Virus record (IMG/VR): IMGVR_UViG_3300025601_000059
Span: 1 to 35,938 of that record
Length of the DNA: 35,938 bases
Strand: one strand, 5' to 3'
From: a virus
The position numbers were made by a program, and so were the translations under genes. Every line of letters starts with the position of its first letter. Position 1 is the first letter of the stretch. Below, piece by piece: positions 2,471 through 31,588 of the stretch. The notes under the pieces were generated by a model. The model saw nothing but the letters and a program-made list of their open reading frames with translations. It was not told the origin of the DNA and searched no databases.

Positions 2471-4107
2471 TGTCTGAATACGTAATAGGCGCCAGCCTGC
2501 CAGAATTTGAAAAAGAGCCAGATCCATTCAAGGCTCAAGACCCTTTCTTAAAAGAGTGGGACGTCCTAAAGGGGCTCTCTGGGATTGATAAAAACTTTAA
2601 GCGCAGGTCTGAAAGAATTCAAAAAGCAAACAACCCTCCTATAGTTGACACCACAATGGCTTACAACAACATAGATGTAACATCCGCAATATACCAGGAC
2701 AGTGCTTTGGCTGTCAATACTGGTAACGGGGCAAACTCCAAAGAGCTTAACCCAGGAGCGGTGTACCGTAATGGGTATGGCATGTTTGATGTGATTACAC
2801 CTCCCTGGAATCTTTATGAACTAGCAAACTTTTATGACACATCATTTGCCAACCACGCAGCCATTGATGCAAAGGTAGAAAACATTGTTGGTCTGGGCTA
2901 CAGCTTTGACGTGTCCAAAAGAACAATGATGAAGCTTGAGTCTAACGAAGATCCAGAAGCTGTCGCTCGTGCTCGTAAAAGGATTCAGAGAGCAAAAGTG
3001 GAAATGGAAGATTGGCTAGATAGTCTTAATAGGGATGACTCCTTTACTAGCACAATGATGAAATTTTACACGGACGTTCAGGCCACAGGAAACGGGTACC
3101 TTGAAGTTGGTAGAACCACGAAGGGTCAGATTGGTTATGTGGGCCACATACCTTCAACAACAATGAGAGCCAGAAGGCTACGAGACGGATACGTTCAGAT
3201 CATAGGTAATAAGGTTGTATACTTTAGAAACTTTGGGGCAACGAACACAAACCCCATGACAGATGATCCTAGGCCTAATGAAATACTTCACTACAAAGAG
3301 TACTCTCCCCTAAATACCTTTTATGGTGTGCCAGACATTATGTCTGCCATATCTTCTCTTTACGGAGATCAGCTTGCTTCTCAGTACAATATTGACTACT
3401 TTGGGAACAAAGGCGTACCACGTTATGTCGTAACTCTTAAGGGAGCCAAACTGTCCTCTGAGGCAGAGGATAAGATGTTCAGGTTCCTGCAGACTAGCCT
3501 TAAAGGACAGTCTCACAGAACCCTTTACATTCCATTGCCGGCAGATTCAGATAACAATAAAGTTGAGTTTAAGATGGAGCCTATAGAGAATGGGGTTCAG
3601 GAAGCATCGTTCAACGAGTATAGAATTCGGAATAGGGATGATATACTTGTAGCACACCAAGTACCTCTATCAAAGATTGGTGGAGCGGACTCGTCCTCTA
3701 TAGCAGCTGCCCTAGCCCAAGACAGAACGTTTAAAGAGCAAGTTGCCAGACCAGCACAGACTAACCTGGAGAAGATGATAAAGAAGATAATTAGAGAAAA
3801 GACTGATATCTTAGACTTTGCCTTTACCGAGTTAACCCTTACAGATGAAATTGCTCAGTCTCAAATACTTGAACGCTATGTCAAGACACAGGTCATGACT
3901 CCTAATGAAGCTCGTGAGTCTCTAGGATTGCCTCAGAGGCCAGATGGAGACTCTCCATTCGAAATGTCACCAAGACAAGCAACAGATGCAAGGGCTAACC
4001 TTGCAGGTAACCGATCAAGAGATGCAGAAAGATCTAACAACGAGTCAGATTCTACGTCTACGTTAAGCGGTAGGAACGCCCAAGGAGAAGGGACATCCTC
4101 TGATTAG
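2470..4107 (+). CDS. Portal protein
   Basis: A 545-residue protein of the HK97/PBSX portal family (Phage_portal), which forms the dodecameric DNA channel at the capsid vertex. Supporting features are a 'PPWNLYELANFYDTS' entry into the wing/stem region, 'ATGNGYLEV' (the usual conserved 'GNaY.ev' strand), 'ILHYKEYSP...YGVPDI' (the family's 'i.H.k....d..yG.p' motif), and the late 'IKKIIREK...FTELTLTDEIAQSQILERYV...MTPNEARESLGLP' segment typical of the crown and the 'tpNEaR..lGlp' signature. The last ~45 residues are polar and probably disordered. The start overlaps the preceding gene by one base, and a GAGG-type ribosome binding site lies in the upstream gene. Length is normal for the family. 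The expected neighbour, terminase, is not in the window. Confidence 0.92.
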   Translation: MSEYVIGASLPEFEKEPDPFKAQDPFLKEWDVLKGLSGIDKNFKRRSERIQKANNPPIVDTTMAYNNIDVTSAIYQDSALAVNTGNGANSKELNPGAVYRNGYGMFDVITPPWNLYELANFYDTSFANHAAIDAKVENIVGLGYSFDVSKRTMMKLESNEDPEAVARARKRIQRAKVEMEDWLDSLNRDDSFTSTMMKFYTDVQATGNGYLEVGRTTKGQIGYVGHIPSTTMRARRLRDGYVQIIGNKVVYFRNFGATNTNPMTDDPRPNEILHYKEYSPLNTFYGVPDIMSAISSLYGDQLASQYNIDYFGNKGVPRYVVTLKGAKLSSEAEDKMFRFLQTSLKGQSHRTLYIPLPADSDNNKVEFKMEPIENGVQEASFNEYRIRNRDDILVAHQVPLSKIGGADSSSIAAALAQDRTFKEQVARPAQTNLEKMIKKIIREKTDILDFAFTELTLTDEIAQSQILERYVKTQVMTPNEARESLGLPQRPDGDSPFEMSPRQATDARANLAGNRSRDAERSNNESDSTSTLSGRNAQGEGTSSD

Positions 4108-6680: not shown

Positions 6681-6700
6681 TTTGTAACAGTATCCTTTTT

Positions 6701-6741
6701 AAAAGGGGGCAGGGGCATCTCGCCTCTGCCCCTCTTTAAGT
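6701..6741 (+). terminator. Rho-independent terminator after the capsid gene
   Basis: A 16-bp G/C-rich stem (6701-6716 with 6722-6737, one A-C mismatch and two G-U pairs) encloses the 5-base loop ATCTC and runs into a T-rich tract. It lies 20 bases after the capsid stop and just before a new -10 box. Confidence 0.82.
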
Positions 6742-6747
6742 TTAATC

Positions 6748-6756
6748 TGATATAAT
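6748..6756 (+). promoter_or_regulatory. Extended -10 promoter restarting transcription after the capsid
   Basis: TGATATAAT carries a perfect TATAAT (6751-6756) directly after the terminator. Transcription would start near 6763, leaving a ~15-base leader whose first bases form the ribosome binding site (AGGAGG, 6763-6768) of the gene at 6778. No -35 hexamer is evident. Confidence 0.55.
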
Positions 6757-6777
6757 TATCACAGGAGGAATATCAAT

Positions 6778-25133: not shown

Positions 25134-26291
25134 ATGATTACAGATAAAGGAAAAGAAATATTTGGCAAGTACCTGGTAGGTTCTGCACCAGCGTATGCTT
25201 CTTACATTGCCATTGGCTGCGGGGCTGCCCCTAACCCCAGTGGATACGAGACAACAGCCGGAGACCTTTCAGCTTGGCCCCAGAAGACTAGCCTAGACTT
25301 TGAGATGTTCAGGGTTCCGATAACCTCTAGAGGATTCGTGCAAGACGAAGATGGAAACTCTCAGGTTGTGTTTTCAGCAGAGGTGCCTACCACAGAACGA
25401 TATGAAATTACAGAAGTCGGCATATTTTCTGCCTCCTCTAACCCCTCCTCTGTTGGTTACGACAGTAGAACTCTTTATGCTTTTACAAGGGAAGAGCCTT
25501 GGAAGTACCTGGAAGCGGCTCTCTTTACAGAGGATCAACCTTTAGATAATCTGTCTGCGTCAAAGGATCTGTCTCTTAGCTTTCGTGAGAACCCCGCCAT
25601 TCAGACTAACGCTACTAACAGAATGTTTAGAGCCGAAAGAGTTGTTCGTTCCGAGCAATCAAGGTACTTTAACAACATGATTATGTTGTCTAGTAATTTT
25701 TCTGACTTGTCGGATTCTTCGTCAATTGCTGGGGAATGGGACTTGTCGGATCAAGATAAGATATCTCTTGCAACATCGGTAGACCTTTCCAGGAATTCTC
25801 CCCTCGACCAAATCAAGCTAGCCCTATCCGTTGTTGATGTAGATGGAACAGCTGGGGTTGCCCCAAACAGGGTAAGGGTTACCTTAGAATTCACTACGGT
25901 TAACAGTGGTGGATCGTTTAGGTTAGACTTTGAGTCAGAGGCTGGAGCTTTTTCACCCAGCAGGTATCGAGTGTTAGAGCAAAGTATCGGTGAAGGTAAG
26001 ACATATGGAACATTTCTTTGGTCTGCTGTGAACAACGTTAATATTTATGCTGCGGCCGTTGATGAGTCCGGGGAAGTTATTATTGAGTCAGGAACTGACT
26101 TACCATACTACTACATTGCCTTAGACGCTATTCGTCTAGAAAACATTGGATCTAAGAATCCACTGTATGCAATGACAGGATACACTGTTATAGAGAACAC
26201 GGAAAACGGTGTTGCTCGTCCCATAGTGAAGTTACCAAATACATCGGCTATGGTTGAGTTTAGGTTGGGTGTAGGAGTCTTTAATGGCTAA
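25134..26291 (+). CDS. Minor tail protein of the 'ITDKGKEIFGKYL' family
   Basis: A 385-residue protein. Its N-terminus 'MITDKGKEIFGKYLVGSAP' followed by 'SYIAIGCGAAP' is a signature shared by many phage tail-fiber or tip proteins, where it forms the base that attaches to the tip. The remaining ~300 residues are beta-rich and aromatic ('VPTTERYEITEVGIFSA' is another typical line: strands describing an attached jelly roll), with 'RVRVTLEFTTVNSGGSFRLDFESEAGAF' in the centre suggesting a carbohydrate-binding sandwich. It overlaps the next gene by 8 bases. A receptor-binding role is inferred. Confidence 0.72.
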   Translation: MITDKGKEIFGKYLVGSAPAYASYIAIGCGAAPNPSGYETTAGDLSAWPQKTSLDFEMFRVPITSRGFVQDEDGNSQVVFSAEVPTTERYEITEVGIFSASSNPSSVGYDSRTLYAFTREEPWKYLEAALFTEDQPLDNLSASKDLSLSFRENPAIQTNATNRMFRAERVVRSEQSRYFNNMIMLSSNFSDLSDSSSIAGEWDLSDQDKISLATSVDLSRNSPLDQIKLALSVVDVDGTAGVAPNRVRVTLEFTTVNSGGSFRLDFESEAGAFSPSRYRVLEQSIGEGKTYGTFLWSAVNNVNIYAAAVDESGEVIIESGTDLPYYYIALDAIRLENIGSKNPLYAMTGYTVIENTENGVARPIVKLPNTSAMVEFRLGVGVFNG

Positions 26292-26730
26292 TGGAAGAAT
26301 ATTACTAGGACCAGCTTCTTGGGTCGTAAACGAAGACCACGAAGTAAGCTTTAGGTATCGGGTTGTGACAAATGACTTAAACGTTAGGTCTGCATTTTCT
26401 CCGACATATGTAGTGGCCGTTCCAGCAGTTGCAGAAATATTCAACACAATAGATTATGGAATAAGCTCTAGAGCTATCGGCTCTCAAAACCTGGTAGACA
26501 TCGTGTGGTCCCTGTTGCCCAGGTATGACAATATGCCTTATTACGTATTTATTAAAGCCCCTGGGGCAACAGACTTCTCTTATCTTAAATTAACTTACGA
26601 AACATCCTTCTCACACATCCTTCCAGCCTCGAGCCCCACGGGTGTCTACAATTTTACAGTGACAATGCCAACAACTGGCAAAACAGCTTTAGCAAATGCA
26701 ATACTTTTTTCAGCCACAGTAACGATTTAA
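26284..26730 (+). CDS. Small minor tail protein, fibronectin-like
   Basis: A 148-residue beta-rich protein. 'EVSFRYRVVTNDLNVRSAFSPTYVVAV' has the strand pattern of a fibronectin-III or similar Ig-like fold, and 'GVYNFTVTMPTTGKTALANAILFSATVTI' would be the last two strands. It overlaps the end of the preceding gene by 8 bases and has TAGGAG upstream, so it is probably translated with it. Such modules decorate phage tails and may bind the cell surface. No enzyme motif is visible. Confidence 0.6.
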   Translation: MANGRILLGPASWVVNEDHEVSFRYRVVTNDLNVRSAFSPTYVVAVPAVAEIFNTIDYGISSRAIGSQNLVDIVWSLLPRYDNMPYYVFIKAPGATDFSYLKLTYETSFSHILPASSPTGVYNFTVTMPTTGKTALANAILFSATVTI

Positions 26731-26739
26731 TGGTATACT
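26731..26739 (+). promoter_or_regulatory. Extended -10 promoter before the gene at 26749
   Basis: TGGTATACT (hexamer 26734-26739) ends 9 bases before ATG 26749. A very short leader (about 3 bases) is predicted. An AGGAG at 26740-26744 is only 4 bases from the ATG, so the site may be used either as a poor ribosome binding site on a read-through RNA or not at all on a near-leaderless one. Confidence 0.5.
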
Positions 26740-26748
26740 AGGAGAACT

Positions 26749-27195
26749 ATGGCAAAGATTCCAACACCAGACAGAGGTCAGCCTCTAGATGTTTCCTACA
26801 TCTACCAGATGGCTACGGCTATCAATGAGCTATCTTCTCAGGTATCGTCTCCTACTTACAAGTATGCTTCTGTTGACACTTCGAGTGGAACCCAGAACAG
26901 TCTGATCTCAAACACAAAGATAGTCGCTGGATCAATAGACATCTACTCAACTCTGACAGACGTGTCCCCAGGCCTTGCTATTGACAAGTCTTACTCCTTT
27001 AACACTGGGGAGTTTAAGTATCCACCGATTGTAACAGCAAGCCCAGTTCTAACTTCAAAGTCCGAAAACGGTTCAGACCTTAGCGTTACAATTAAGCAGA
27101 TCACTACCTCTAGGGTTGATCTTACGGTGACATTCTTTGGAACTGGTAAGGCTGCCTTGAAGGTAAACCTTATTGCTATTGGCCTACCGCTCTAG
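26749..27195 (+). CDS. Small minor tail protein, possible trimeric fiber segment
   Basis: A 148-residue protein. The first ~35 residues ('SYIYQMATAINELSSQV') form an amphipathic helix with heptad spacing, followed by a beta-rich body with 'FKYPPIVTASPVLTSKSENGSDLSVTIKQITTSRVDLTVTFFGTGKAALKVNLIAIG'. A short coiled coil followed by an H-type-lectin-like sandwich is a common layout in tail tip adhesins. It is the last gene of the tail cluster and has its own -10 box. The function is inferred from layout. Confidence 0.62.
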   Translation: MAKIPTPDRGQPLDVSYIYQMATAINELSSQVSSPTYKYASVDTSSGTQNSLISNTKIVAGSIDIYSTLTDVSPGLAIDKSYSFNTGEFKYPPIVTASPVLTSKSENGSDLSVTIKQITTSRVDLTVTFFGTGKAALKVNLIAIGLPL

Positions 27196-27207
27196 TCGTT
27201 AGCCCCC

Positions 27208-27756
27208 ATGCCTCCCAACCCAAAGCGCGGATACAGGACTCGAGAAGAGTATAACGAGGCATCTGTGATACCGGGGAATAAAAAAGTATACTTCTTAAAC
27301 GGTAAGCTGGTCAGGGCTTATCACATCAATAGGTCTAATGGCATAATGTCTGTCTACAACATAATCGATGACCAAATAGAGAGCTGCCTTATTAGTGATT
27401 TTAAAAAGAATCGTGAGAAGGCATACACTGTAGGTGAAACCGCAGACTTAGTGAACAGACATAAGAAGTACATGCCATCGCTGATGAAGCGTGAGGAGAT
27501 CCCCAGGCCTACGGGAAGTCAAAAAGGTGGGGCAACAGGCTGGCAAGTGAGAAGTTATTATTCAGAGTCACAAGTAAAAGAGATACGAGACATTCTTGCA
27601 TCTTATCATATGGGTAGGCCAAGAGGTGACGGCCTCCTTACGAACAACATAACACCTACGGCTCCAGAGTTGACAAGGCGCATGGGGCATGGTATGCTTA
27701 CATATACCAAGACAGAAGATGGAAGATTTATTCCTACTTGGTCGGAGAGTATTTAA
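27208..27756 (+). CDS. MerR-like helix-turn-helix DNA-binding protein
   Basis: A 182-residue basic protein. Residues ~70-130 have the pattern of a MerR/excisionase-type winged helix: 'AYTVGETADLVNRHKKYMPSLMKREEIPRP' (helix-turn-helix followed by the 'G.ip.P'-type turn) and 'RSYYSESQVKEIRDILASYH' (the 'R.Y...dv..I..i' wing-and-helix). The N-terminal ~65 residues are a separate beta-type domain with 'GKKVYFLNGKLVRAYHI', perhaps for sensing or oligomerisation, and the tail is polar. Codon start ATG 27208 has no ribosome binding site. It lies exactly between the virion and replication blocks and is followed within 20 bases by an inverted repeat over a promoter, so a regulator of that promoter is a reasonable inference. 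No sensory cysteine pair is seen. Confidence 0.68.
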   Translation: MPPNPKRGYRTREEYNEASVIPGNKKVYFLNGKLVRAYHINRSNGIMSVYNIIDDQIESCLISDFKKNREKAYTVGETADLVNRHKKYMPSLMKREEIPRPTGSQKGGATGWQVRSYYSESQVKEIRDILASYHMGRPRGDGLLTNNITPTAPELTRRMGHGMLTYTKTEDGRFIPTWSESI

Positions 27757-27780
27757 AGACATTTGGGTATTGCATGTCTT
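27756..27780 (+). promoter_or_regulatory. Inverted repeat, candidate operator
   Basis: AAGACAT (27756-27762) and ATGTCTT (27774-27780) are perfect inverted repeats with an 11-base spacer. The right arm overlaps the -35 hexamer of the promoter for the replication module. No T tract follows, so a simple terminator is unlikely. Confidence 0.5.
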
Positions 27781-27798
27781 CCAGATCTGTGGTACTAT
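27770..27798 (+). promoter_or_regulatory. Sigma70-type promoter of the replication module
   Basis: TTGCAT (27770-27775), 17-base spacer, TACTAT (27793-27798), with an extended TGG before the -10. This is one of three sites in the window with a recognisable -35. It would start transcription near 27805, upstream of ATG 27830. Confidence 0.6.
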
Positions 27799-27829
27799 GT
27801 ATTACAATAAGTTCTATGAGAGGGACATT

Positions 27830-28039
27830 ATGGAAATCGAAAGTACAAAAATAACGGTAGCATTGGGGTATACCCTAAACCTAGGTAACTTTCAATCATT
27901 GAGAGTAGACATTGGAGTAACAGACTCCAAGCGTGACGGAGAAAATACTGACCAAGCCTTCGATCGGATTTACGCATTCGTAGAAAGTAAACTTGGAGAT
28001 AAGGTTGCTGAGGCATCCCAGGAGCTAGAGACTAAGTAA
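27830..28039 (+). CDS. Small conserved protein of the replication module
   Basis: A 69-residue protein: 'KITVALGYTLNLGNFQSLRVDIGVTDSKRDGE' (three strands) then a helix 'QAFDRIYAFVESKLGDKVAEASQELETK'. The frame is open from 27689, but ATG 27830 is chosen because it follows the promoter and an AGAGGGA site, while earlier starts overlap the HTH gene or the -10 box. The beta-beta-beta-alpha pattern suits a small nucleic-acid-binding or helicase-associated protein, but I cannot assign a function. It overlaps the next gene by one base (TAATG). Confidence 0.72.
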   Translation: MEIESTKITVALGYTLNLGNFQSLRVDIGVTDSKRDGENTDQAFDRIYAFVESKLGDKVAEASQELETK

Positions 28040-28347
28040 TGGCAGATCGCAAGGAGAGGTTCTCCTTGCTCAGCCGCTACAGCAAGCATCATACTGCACG
28101 TTATGAGCAAAGACCTCAAATCAACCTAAACGTAGAACAGTGGGCAGCCGATGCCCTAATTGAGTCATACACTTTACAAGGATGCTATGACCTGCTAGAA
28201 TATTATTTCGAAGTAGCTCAGAATCCAGCGTGGAAGTATTTTGCCAACTATGCGCAAGATATAATTTCAAAGCGTGACCAGTACAACCAAGATCTAATCG
28301 ACAGGAAGCAGCGCAGAGCTGCAGCGAAGAAGTGGTTAAGTGAGTAA
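28039..28347 (+). CDS. Small helical protein adjacent to the helicase gene
   Basis: A 102-residue, strongly basic and aromatic, all-helical-looking protein ('EQWAADALIESYTLQGCYDLLEYYFEVAQNPAWKYFANYAQDIISKRDQYNQDLIDRKQRRAAAKKWLSE'-type heptads; rows of Tyr/Phe/Trp on one face). It overlaps the upstream gene by one base and the helicase gene by 8 bases, so it is co-translated with the helicase. A helicase loader or partner is a reasonable guess from position and size, but no AAA+ motif or known loader signature is present. Confidence 0.68.
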   Translation: MADRKERFSLLSRYSKHHTARYEQRPQINLNVEQWAADALIESYTLQGCYDLLEYYFEVAQNPAWKYFANYAQDIISKRDQYNQDLIDRKQRRAAAKKWLSE

Positions 28348-29569
28348 TACAGAGTCTAAACTAATATCAGCCGTCCTAGAGGATAAGCAGGTGCACGTTT
28401 TGCTACAGGCAAACGTGGACAACCTTCTCCGTACCCATAAAGACATCTGGGAGTTTATACGAACCTACTCCGAGAGGAATGGGTCCGTACCTCCAACTTC
28501 AATACTTGTAGAAAAGTTTAGGGACTTTCAGCCTGTCCCAGGAATCGGAACCACTAAGTATCACTTGGAGGAGTTGCAGGCAGAGTATCTTAATGATAGC
28601 CTAAAGGACATGATCCGAACGGCAGCATCAGATATTCAAAATGGTGAAGGCGTCAAGGTATTAGAGTCACTCATTACTGACACCTCTGCCCTAAAGAAAA
28701 ACACCTCTGCCATCAGGGACATCGATGCCACAGACATCGAAGACGCTGTTGCCTATTACGAACATGTCCAAAAGCAAACTGCTCTTGGAGTACAAGGTAT
28801 TAGAACGGGGCTTCCCGGATTTGACAACTATCTACCAGCAGGAATTACTGCAGGACAGCTAGGGGTGTTCCTTGCGTATCCAGGTATTGGTAAGTCTTGG
28901 TTGTCCCTATACTTTGCGGTACAGGCATGGAAGCTCGGCAAGACTCCTATGGTCGTAAGCCTAGAGATGAGTGAGACAGAAGTTCGTAACCGCGTGTTTA
29001 CAATTATGGGCGAAGGCCTTTGGTCTCACAGAAAGCTTTCCGCAGGTGACGTAGAAGTTGACGACCTGAGAAGGTGGCACAAGAGCAAGCTAGAGGGCAA
29101 GCCAGAGTTTCACATCATATCAAATGACTCTGGTGGGGAAGTTACTCCATCGGTTCTTCGAGGAAAGATTGACCAGTACAAGCCAGACTTTATTATCGTT
29201 GATTACCTACAGCTGATGTCTCCTAATCAAAAATCTGAGAACGAGACTGTTAGGATGAAGAACCTTTCTCGGGAGCTAAAGCTAATGGCCATCTCTGAGG
29301 AGGTACCTATCCTAGCCATATCCTCAGCGACCCCTGACGACGTCACCAAGCTAGATACAGTTCCAACCCTAGGACAGACAGCCTGGAGCCGTCAGATCGC
29401 TTACGACGCCGACTGGGTCCTAGCCCTGGGCCGAGCTGCAAACTCCGACGTAATCGAATGCGTATTCAGAAAAAACAGAAATGGGTTTATGGGAGAGTTC
29501 CTTGTTCAGGCAGACTTTGACAAGGGGTGGTACAAGTACAAGGACTACGAAGGTGGAAGTTCTTCGTAG
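28340..29569 (+). CDS. dnaB: Replicative DNA helicase, DnaB family
   Basis: A 409-residue ring helicase. Residues ~1-130 are a short helical N-domain plus linker, reduced compared with bacterial DnaB. The RecA-like core has 'AYPGIGKSW' at 179-187 (DnaB-type Walker A), 'VVSLEMSETEVRNRVF' at 206-220 (H1a region), 'FIIVDYLQLMSP' at 284-295 (Walker B), 'LSRELKLMA' at 309-317, and 'ECVFRKNRNGFMGEF' at 373-387 (arginine-finger/H4). It unwinds duplex DNA at the fork on the lagging strand template. Start is GTG 28340, overlapping the previous gene by 8 bases. The primase gene lies shortly downstream, as in many phages. Confidence 0.93.
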   Translation: MSNTESKLISAVLEDKQVHVLLQANVDNLLRTHKDIWEFIRTYSERNGSVPPTSILVEKFRDFQPVPGIGTTKYHLEELQAEYLNDSLKDMIRTAASDIQNGEGVKVLESLITDTSALKKNTSAIRDIDATDIEDAVAYYEHVQKQTALGVQGIRTGLPGFDNYLPAGITAGQLGVFLAYPGIGKSWLSLYFAVQAWKLGKTPMVVSLEMSETEVRNRVFTIMGEGLWSHRKLSAGDVEVDDLRRWHKSKLEGKPEFHIISNDSGGEVTPSVLRGKIDQYKPDFIIVDYLQLMSPNQKSENETVRMKNLSRELKLMAISEEVPILAISSATPDDVTKLDTVPTLGQTAWSRQIAYDADWVLALGRAANSDVIECVFRKNRNGFMGEFLVQADFDKGWYKYKDYEGGSSS

Positions 29570-29610: not shown

Positions 29611-29943
29611 ATGGAAAGCTATCATCACAAGGCTATAAAGAGTTTTAGTATCAGTGGAGAGATCTACGATGACTCTGAAATAATAAGGCTGCGAGATGAA
29701 TACTCTAGAGTATTGCACACAGGCATGAGAATTTCTGGATACGTTCCAAGGCTAGACATTTTAGAAGATTTCACAATAGAATACGAAGAAGCAACTCTAA
29801 TATTTAAATTTAAGCTAACAATATATGGTTCATACATAGGGAAGAAAAAAAGCGAATGGGTGATGGGATTAAACAGTACAGCTCCAGTCTATACTCAGAG
29901 GAGCAAGTCAAGCGAGTTATTACGGGATCCGGCCTCACCATAG
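29611..29943 (+). CDS. Small protein of unknown function overlapping primase
   Basis: A 110-residue protein. 'SISGEIYDDSEIIRLRDEYSRVL' is helical and 'DILEDFTIEYEEATLIFKFKLTIYGSYIGKK' is beta-rich, giving a small alpha/beta fold. There is no recognisable domain. It would be leaderless. Its last 29 codons (29856-29943) overlap the primase gene in another frame, and this tail ('NSTAPVYTQRSKSSELL...') looks unstructured, as if the frame simply reads through the primase start. The N-terminal part has codon and residue use like real genes here. Confidence 0.55.
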   Translation: MESYHHKAIKSFSISGEIYDDSEIIRLRDEYSRVLHTGMRISGYVPRLDILEDFTIEYEEATLIFKFKLTIYGSYIGKKKSEWVMGLNSTAPVYTQRSKSSELLRDPASP

Positions 29944-30800
29944 AAGGCGAAGTCGATATTGACTTCCTACTGTTCTGCCCATTTCACCCAAACCATCGAA
30001 CTCCAGCTGGAGAAATTGATAAATCCAAGGGCACGTTCTTTTGTTTCTCCTGTCACAAAGTCGCAGACTTAACAGAGTTTGTTATGCACACAACCGGAAG
30101 GACTTACTTCGAGTCCGCTAGGTTTATTAAAAGTAAAGAGACTGAGACTAACATAGAGGCAGAGGTGCAGAGGGCTCTTACAGAGCGACCAGAGTACGTG
30201 CCTTTCGATGAGGTTACTATTCAGCGCCTTTCTCAGCAGGCACTAGATTCCCCAAGGGCGGTCAACTATTACCTTGGCAGGAATATATCTAAAGAGTCCA
30301 TGGAAACTTTTAAGCTTGGGTTTTCGGAGAAGCAAGACATGGTCACGATACCTGTGCATGCCCCCAACGGGATGGCTGTAGGTTTTGTTGGTAGGTCTAT
30401 AGAGGGCAAAGAATTTAAGAACACCCCAAAACTTCCTAAAGGCAAAGTCCTGTTCAACCTGCATCGCGTAAAAAACGCAGATAAGATTTATGTTGTGGAG
30501 TCCTCATTTGATGCGATAAGATTACATCAATGTGATTTTCCAGCGGTAGCTACGTTGGGATCAAATGTATCCAACATACAAACAGACCTACTACAAAAAT
30601 ACTTCAATAACGTAATAGTTATTGCTGATAATGATGAAGCAGGCGGAAACATGAAAGACAGGATAATTAAAAAACTTGGCTCTAGAGTATCCGTAATACA
30701 GTTAGAAAAGCAATACAAAGATATAGGCGATATGTCAGATAACGATATAAGAAACTTAGAGTATTCGTTTGACAAATCAATAGCCAGCATGCTAACATAA
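29856..30800 (+). CDS. DNA primase, DnaG-type (short)
   Basis: A 314-residue primase. A zinc ribbon is formed by C41, H44, C63 and C66 ('CPFHPNHRTP' and 'FCFSCHKVADL'). The Toprim core follows with Glu215 in 'IYVVESSFDAIRL' and the Asp258-x-Asp260 pair in 'VIVIADNDEAGG', the metal-binding acids for RNA primer synthesis. The C-terminal helicase-binding domain of bacterial DnaG is missing, so it is much shorter than the ~600-residue bacterial enzyme, as usual in phages. ATG 29856 is the only plausible start before the zinc finger, though it has no clear ribosome binding site and lies inside the preceding gene. It probably depends on translation of that gene. Confidence 0.9.
   Translation: MGDGIKQYSSSLYSEEQVKRVITGSGLTIEGEVDIDFLLFCPFHPNHRTPAGEIDKSKGTFFCFSCHKVADLTEFVMHTTGRTYFESARFIKSKETETNIEAEVQRALTERPEYVPFDEVTIQRLSQQALDSPRAVNYYLGRNISKESMETFKLGFSEKQDMVTIPVHAPNGMAVGFVGRSIEGKEFKNTPKLPKGKVLFNLHRVKNADKIYVVESSFDAIRLHQCDFPAVATLGSNVSNIQTDLLQKYFNNVIVIADNDEAGGNMKDRIIKKLGSRVSVIQLEKQYKDIGDMSDNDIRNLEYSFDKSIASMLT
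30769..30798 (+). promoter_or_regulatory. Sigma70-type promoter of the SSB gene
   Basis: TTGACA (30769-30774) lies inside the end of the primase gene, with an 18-base spacer to TAACAT (30793-30798) preceded by TGC. Transcription would start near 30805 and give the SSB gene a short leader with AAGGAG. Confidence 0.55.
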
Positions 30801-31482: not shown

Positions 31483-31490
31483 TTTATATT

Positions 31491-31522
31491 AGGAGGGGTG
31501 GCCACTCGCTGCCCCTCCTTTT
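31491..31522 (+). terminator. Terminator after the SSB gene
   Basis: AGGAGGGG (31491-31498) pairs perfectly with CCCCTCCT (31512-31519) across a 13-base loop and is followed by TTTTA. It separates the SSB unit from the polymerase gene. Confidence 0.75.
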
Positions 31523-31533
31523 ACACGCCCCTA

Positions 31534-31562
31534 TTGACATCACGCGCTCACTGTGCAATAAT
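31534..31562 (+). promoter_or_regulatory. Sigma70-type promoter of the polymerase gene
   Basis: A perfect TTGACA (31534-31539), 17-base spacer and AATAAT (31557-31562) with TGC before the -10. The predicted start is near 31569, and the ~20-base leader carries AGAGGA (31578-31583) before ATG 31589. This is the best classical promoter in the window. Confidence 0.75.
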
Positions 31563-31570
31563 TATTGTAC
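31553..31570 (+). promoter_or_regulatory. Palindrome over the -10 box, candidate operator
   Basis: GTGCAATAATTATTGTAC is an 18-bp inverted repeat with one mismatched pair; the inner 12 bases CAATAATTATTG are a perfect palindrome. It covers the -10 hexamer and the predicted start site, the classical place for a dimeric repressor. No matching binding protein can be named from the sequence. Confidence 0.55.
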
Positions 31571-31588
31571 GCATAACAGAGGATCTTA

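Follow-up and report, generated by a model that had tools for sequence, protein, structure and literature searches.

A promoter-type sequence preserved inside the 3′ end of a winged-helix gene as the probable switch point at the structural/replication border of a group of uncultured phages

We identified a sequence with the layout of a sigma-70/sigma-A promoter, here referred to as P2, inside the end of a winged-helix gene at the border between the structural and replication genes of a virus recorded in IMG/VR, whose sequence of 35,938 bases is called the window below. P2 points towards the replication genes, and its letters are under purifying selection beyond that on the encoded protein. Judging from its sequence, P2 is probably the switch point of this border, firing towards the replication genes. 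The inverted repeat to which the original prediction had assigned that role is not the switch point; a chance repeat is replaced by a conserved, probable control point for the replication genes. P2 would also be a clean case of a promoter preserved in coding sequence and seen only by codon-level comparison, and it supplies exact bases for testing.

The gene carrying P2, confirmed as an open frame of 182 aa, stands between the structural genes and the replication block, in which PHROG 5189, a small gene, DnaB, primase, SSB, a DnaE-type polymerase and UvsX/RecA follow in this order. The features of the gene and its surroundings are as follows:

27208..27756, + strand: gene of 182 aa, PHROG 9440, MerR/HTH_17-type winged helix, heading the replication block (ORF and profile match)
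27277..27411, + strand: N-terminal SH3/Tudor-like barrel, residues 24-68 (model pLDDT ~90-95)
27415..27615, + strand: MerR-like winged helix, residues 70-136 (structure comparison)
27670..27675, + strand: −35 hexamer of P2, TTGACA, codons Leu-Thr
27690..27698, + strand: extended −10 of P2, TGG-TATGCT (TATACT in most relatives), codons His/Asp-Gly-Met/Ile-Leu
27830..28039, + strand: first gene downstream of P2, 69 aa, PHROG 5189
28340..29569, + strand: DnaB-like helicase, followed by primase, SSB, DnaE-type polymerase and UvsX/RecA up to 35861

The start of PHROG 5189 was set at 27830 because the in-frame ATG at 27797 is lost in relatives (L001, L004 and L007) and L007 has an in-frame stop, TAA; a longer downstream protein starting at this ATG or at TTG 27770 was rejected on the same grounds. 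A terminator separating structural and replication genes was sought at 26000-29000 and none was found. We retrieved 80 close and 80 more distant relatives. The phages concerned form a common group, uncultured and mostly aquatic. The hosts are probably Actinobacteria, as suggested by the related phages of Streptomyces and Rhodococcus, and the gene order around the winged-helix gene is common to the window and known actinophages.

P2 reads TTGACA-N17-TATGCT with the TG of an extended −10 (27670-27698) and lies within the last 90 nt of the gene, aimed at the replication genes. It thus has the hexamers, the spacing (16-18 nt) and the optional TG of sigma-70/sigma-A extended −10 promoters. With 10/12 consensus bases plus TG in the window, it was one of the two best-scoring sites in the promoter scan of the region; the other, at 28173-28201, was unconserved and was used as a control. 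From the spacing, transcription would be expected to start at ~27704-27706. Across the relatives, TTGACA-N17-TGG-TATACT is near-invariant and the codons between the hexamers vary. P2 scores at least 9/12 at the aligned place in 148/149 relatives, and control promoter-like coding sites nearby reach that score in just 15/139 and 28/126. It lies 64-67 nt before the gene end, with a 17-nt spacer, in every relative of our table, in which the window is counted twice. The TG is missing in 25 of 140 relatives, in which the Asp codon is GAC. The lineage of the window has a slightly weaker P2, with TATGCT as −10 and, in L007, CTGACA as −35; TATGCT was also found in L017, which has no ~50-nt intergenic spacer of the kind described below for the window lineage. 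P2 is clade-specific, being absent from the Streptomyces phages and from further relatives with less than 55% identity; L103 (40% identity) retains TTGCGT-17-TGG-TATAGT (8/12). Three relatives below 55% identity and without P2 (L091, L094 and L095) have TTTACA-18-TGC-TATAAT some 100 nt into the next gene, around 3480-3520, and a downstream shift of the replication promoter is possible in this group.

Synonymous changes were counted on a tree built from 88 representatives that differ by more than 3%. The five hexamer codons underwent 14 synonymous steps, against a mean of 84.6 expected and a minimum of 24 in the draws, and none of 200,000 random codon sets of matched degeneracy was as low as 14. 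The letters of P2 are thus conserved beyond what coding requires. Flanking codons vary freely (Arg 33, Arg 22 and Gly 23 steps), and so does most of the 17-nt spacer. Less than 15% of the expected synonymous change was seen in just five of the gene's codons (85 representatives), four of them in P2 or in the region of the expected start, and the constraint reaches the TAT codon at 27703, just past the −10. The promoter sequence was also retained where the protein changed: Leu to Ile in L098 and L160 turned TATACT into TATAAT, and Asp to Asn in L110 kept TGG-TATACT. Elsewhere in the same gene, outside the promoter, the TTT (Phe) codon at 27400-27402 was invariant in 85/85 representatives.

Two further features lie behind the gene:

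27756..27780, + strand: inverted repeat AAGACAT-N11-ATGTCTT, unconserved
27770..27798, + strand: weak promoter-like pair TTGCAT-N17-TACTAT, window lineage only

In the original prediction, the repeat was an operator whose right arm covers the −35 of the promoter for the replication block. The perfect 7-bp repeat is present (27756-27762 / 27774-27780) and abuts the gene, its left arm starting at the last base of the stop codon. The overlap of the right arm with the −35 exists as well, and is limited to two bases of TTGCAT. The promoter-like pair could also be confirmed, with its −35 at 27770-27775, 17 nt, a −10 at 27793-27798 and an extended −10 TG; it is weak (7/12 consensus bases), was not reported by the promoter scan, and has a −10 whose letters differ among the nine near-identical genomes of the window lineage. 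The operator role itself did not hold, as the repeat is unconserved and at chance level, and the stronger, deeply conserved P2 lies ~100 nt upstream, inside the gene. Co-occurrence of repeat and gene, proposed as a check, failed, an outcome that the original prediction had named as refuting it: among 140 relatives of 55-96% identity, none has the repeat at that place, and a few carry different repeats close by that bear no relation to it, at the level expected by chance. It was found only in the window and eight near-identical relatives (L001-L008, ~97-100% protein identity), the sole relatives with a ~50-nt spacer behind the gene, and is intact in 6/9, the outer base pair being gone in L001, L004 and L006. 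Nearly all other relatives from the same search (79-85% identical) have 10-30 nt from the stop to the next start. Perfect inverted repeats with arms of at least 7 are common in the window: there are 62 of them if loops of 0-20 are allowed and 49 if the loop is 3-20 long, and one such repeat occurs in 6% of shuffled 76-nt stretches of the same composition. A role of the repeat as an RNA hairpin was rejected, since the predicted fold of the spacer leaves it unused and gains no stability over shuffled sequences (z −0.3). MerR-type operators sit in promoter spacers of 19-20 nt. Here, the centre of the repeat falls upstream of its promoter's −35, outside the spacer, and the spacers of the two candidate promoters measure 17 nt. 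Repeat and weak promoter are part of a ~50-nt spacer confined to the window lineage.

The protein agrees with the original description in being MerR-like, in having an additional domain at its N-terminus and in lacking a set of metal cysteines, with one Cys in all; it is a winged-helix protein, and its gene heads the replication block. It matches the profile of PHROG 9440 (function unknown) with E 6e-24 over residues 25-180, most of its length. Pfam HTH_17 was detected in 23/32 relatives and MerR_1 in 8/32; the window protein gives no match to either with E<1. In the AlphaFold2 model (mean pLDDT 81, low confidence after residue 130), the winged helix resembles CadR (Z 5.0), HiNmlR (4.9), MtaN (4.3) and RacA (4.3), with rmsd ~2 over 57-60 residues. 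Since these Z values are middling and no Foldseek match fell below E 0.001, the assignment as a MerR-type winged helix rests on the agreement of Pfam, in the relatives, and fold, in the model; a sequence search of solved structures returned nothing. By its modelled fold it is a DNA-binding protein. It may regulate P2. The barrel matches SETDB1, SMN and other Tudor/SH3-like barrels (Z 4.3-4.8), which indicates the fold class only. CarD (Z 4.6) was discarded as a match, having rmsd >5 and being tied with unrelated barrels, and we make no claim about RNA polymerase from it. The usual MerR layout, an N-terminal wing followed by a long coiled-coil helix, was not found: the barrel stands in front, helix 120-132 ends in coil at 133-151 in the model (low confidence after 130), and the tail behind the winged helix comprises residues 137-182. 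As the model shows no coiled coil, a classical palindrome-binding MerR dimer seems unlikely. BldC, a MerR-like protein that also lacks this element, binds direct repeats in a head-to-tail arrangement (PMC5859096), and the case for expecting an inverted-repeat operator is therefore weak.

Other explanations of the conserved letters were weighed against a promoter. It is very improbable that the codons are frozen by codon preference, mRNA structure or an overlapping frame with no promoter involved. Such causes can produce strong codon constraint in phages, but the gene shows no general fixation of ATA for Ile or of TTG for Leu, neighbouring codons vary, and the amino-acid changes keep the hexamers. 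The overlapping frame is moreover closed, its ATG at 27689 being missing or soon followed by stops in relatives that keep P2. We also regard it as unlikely that the frozen codons are an operator, overlapping the promoter, of the winged-helix protein or another regulator, by which the gene would carry its own target. The extension of the constraint to the TAT codon at 27703 and the MerR-type protein encoded in cis speak for it; however, the constrained letters are those of the sigma-70 hexamers and the TG, most of the spacer is free, and its 17 nt differ from the length usual for MerR-type operators. In principle, some other DNA-binding protein could be the cause of the conserved letters of P2.

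Where the promoter of the replication genes lies was the other point to be weighed. The model in which a dimer of the winged-helix protein binds the repeat at 27756-27780 and controls TTGCAT-17-TACTAT as the driver of the replication genes has hardly any chance of being correct. The repeat and the promoter-like pair both exist and the protein has a DNA-binding fold, but the repeat is at chance level, belongs to the window lineage, where its outer pair is lost in three genomes, and is absent from 140/140 others; the promoter is weak and its −10 varies; nearly all other relatives have ~10-30 nt between the genes; and the coiled-coil helix by which MerR proteins dimerise is missing from the protein model. 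We consider it rather unlikely that the window lineage moved its replication promoter, so that TTGCAT-17-TGGTACTAT in the spacer replaces or supplements a decaying P2. This lineage has lost P1 (see below), its −10 of P2 has changed from TATACT to TATGCT, and it alone has the spacer, yet P2 still has 10/12 with TG versus 7/12 for the spacer promoter, whose −10 letters vary even among near-identical genomes. Perhaps part of the function of P2 has moved to the new spacer, as P2 is weaker and P1 is lost there.

Two extended −10 elements were detected upstream of P2:

26731..26739, + strand: extended −10 TGGTATACT without −35, directly before the last structural gene (26749)
27588..27596, + strand: place of P1, extended −10 TGATATACT, kept in 58/88 representatives and lost in the window lineage

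P1 was left out of the main claim; its constraint is real in part of the group, but a good −35 (at least 9/12) was found in 1/149, and P1 is lost in the window. TGnTATAMT occurs just before the start of the last structural gene in 71/72 distinct loci, ~8-20 nt before the start codon and with no obvious −35, and a site of this type was found before the winged-helix gene in 0/49 loci. This points to joint transcription of the winged-helix gene with the structural genes, and to P2 as the site serving replication; the site at 26731 is a probable late promoter that would also transcribe the winged-helix gene. Similar sites without −35 were observed near gene borders of the structural half of the window, at 2086, 6748, 10064, 10814, 11531, 25090 and 26731, and they probably form a class of late promoters. 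Some of them are very near the ATG, so near-leaderless transcripts are likely. The picture suggests two promoter classes in these phages, one with full −35/−10 promoters that serves replication and one with an extended −10 alone that serves the structural genes.

If P2 is the switch point, the polymerase of the host would use it shortly after infection, and a replication transcript starting near 27705 would serve PHROG 5189, DnaB, primase, SSB and DnaE with no need of the structural genes. The winged-helix gene, with no comparable promoter directly upstream, would probably be made from the extended −10-only class, e.g. from 26731. We infer the transcription of P2, its earliness and its start position. 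It is also conceivable, though improbable, that the winged-helix protein is produced along with the structural proteins, binds P2 in the gene that encodes it and turns down or readjusts transcription for replication, perhaps through a contact of its SH3/Tudor-like domain with RNA polymerase. If true, this binding would be a late-to-early feedback switch, in which sensor, operator and promoter share the same bases.

Phage and bacterial promoters occur inside the 3′ end of the upstream gene; P2 would be a new and unusually well kept example. It shares with them the sigma-70 type and the position in coding sequence, and it differs from them in being kept near letter-for-letter in ~150 loci despite protein changes and in its place at the structural/replication border. 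No earlier description of P2 was found in the openly licensed literature. According to PMC10653884, synonymous recoding can create intragenic transcription starts in mycobacteria.

The Streptomyces phages of Stanwilliamsviridae (e.g. Moab gp52) have a PHROG 9440 homologue over ~85% of the protein with ~28-31% identity, annotated as 'MerR-like helix-turn-helix DNA binding domain protein' and found at the equivalent position, followed by small genes, DnaB, primase, SSB and DnaE. There is no embedded promoter at this place, and phosphoesterase and small membrane/holin genes lie upstream, where the window has tail genes. The MerR family (CadR, HiNmlR, MtaN, RacA) shares the fold of residues 70-136, whereas in the window protein an SH3-like barrel precedes the wing, the model shows no helix for coiled-coil dimerisation behind it, and there are no metal cysteines and no palindrome in an elongated spacer. 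BldC is a MerR-like winged helix with no coiled coil, a layout with which the model of the window protein is compatible; it is 68 residues long and consists of the wing alone, to which the window protein adds the barrel and the tail; the Foldseek match to the BldC-DNA chain 6ama_H was weak (TM 0.62 on BldC length, E 1.3).

Other signals and overlaps were observed along the window. The PHROG 17515 gene (29611-29943) overlaps the start of the primase gene (29856-30800) by ~90 nt, and the same overlap is seen between gp57 and gp58 of Streptomyces phage Moab. Between structural genes, at 6681-6777, a strong hairpin around GGGGGCAGGGGCATCTCGCCTCTGCCCCTC is followed by TGATATAAT and an AGGAGG site, likely a terminator and a late-type promoter. 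In the replication block, at 31483-31588 before the DnaE-type polymerase, a G+C-rich hairpin with a T-run precedes TTGACA and TG-C-AATAAT, likely a terminator followed by a full −35/−10 promoter.
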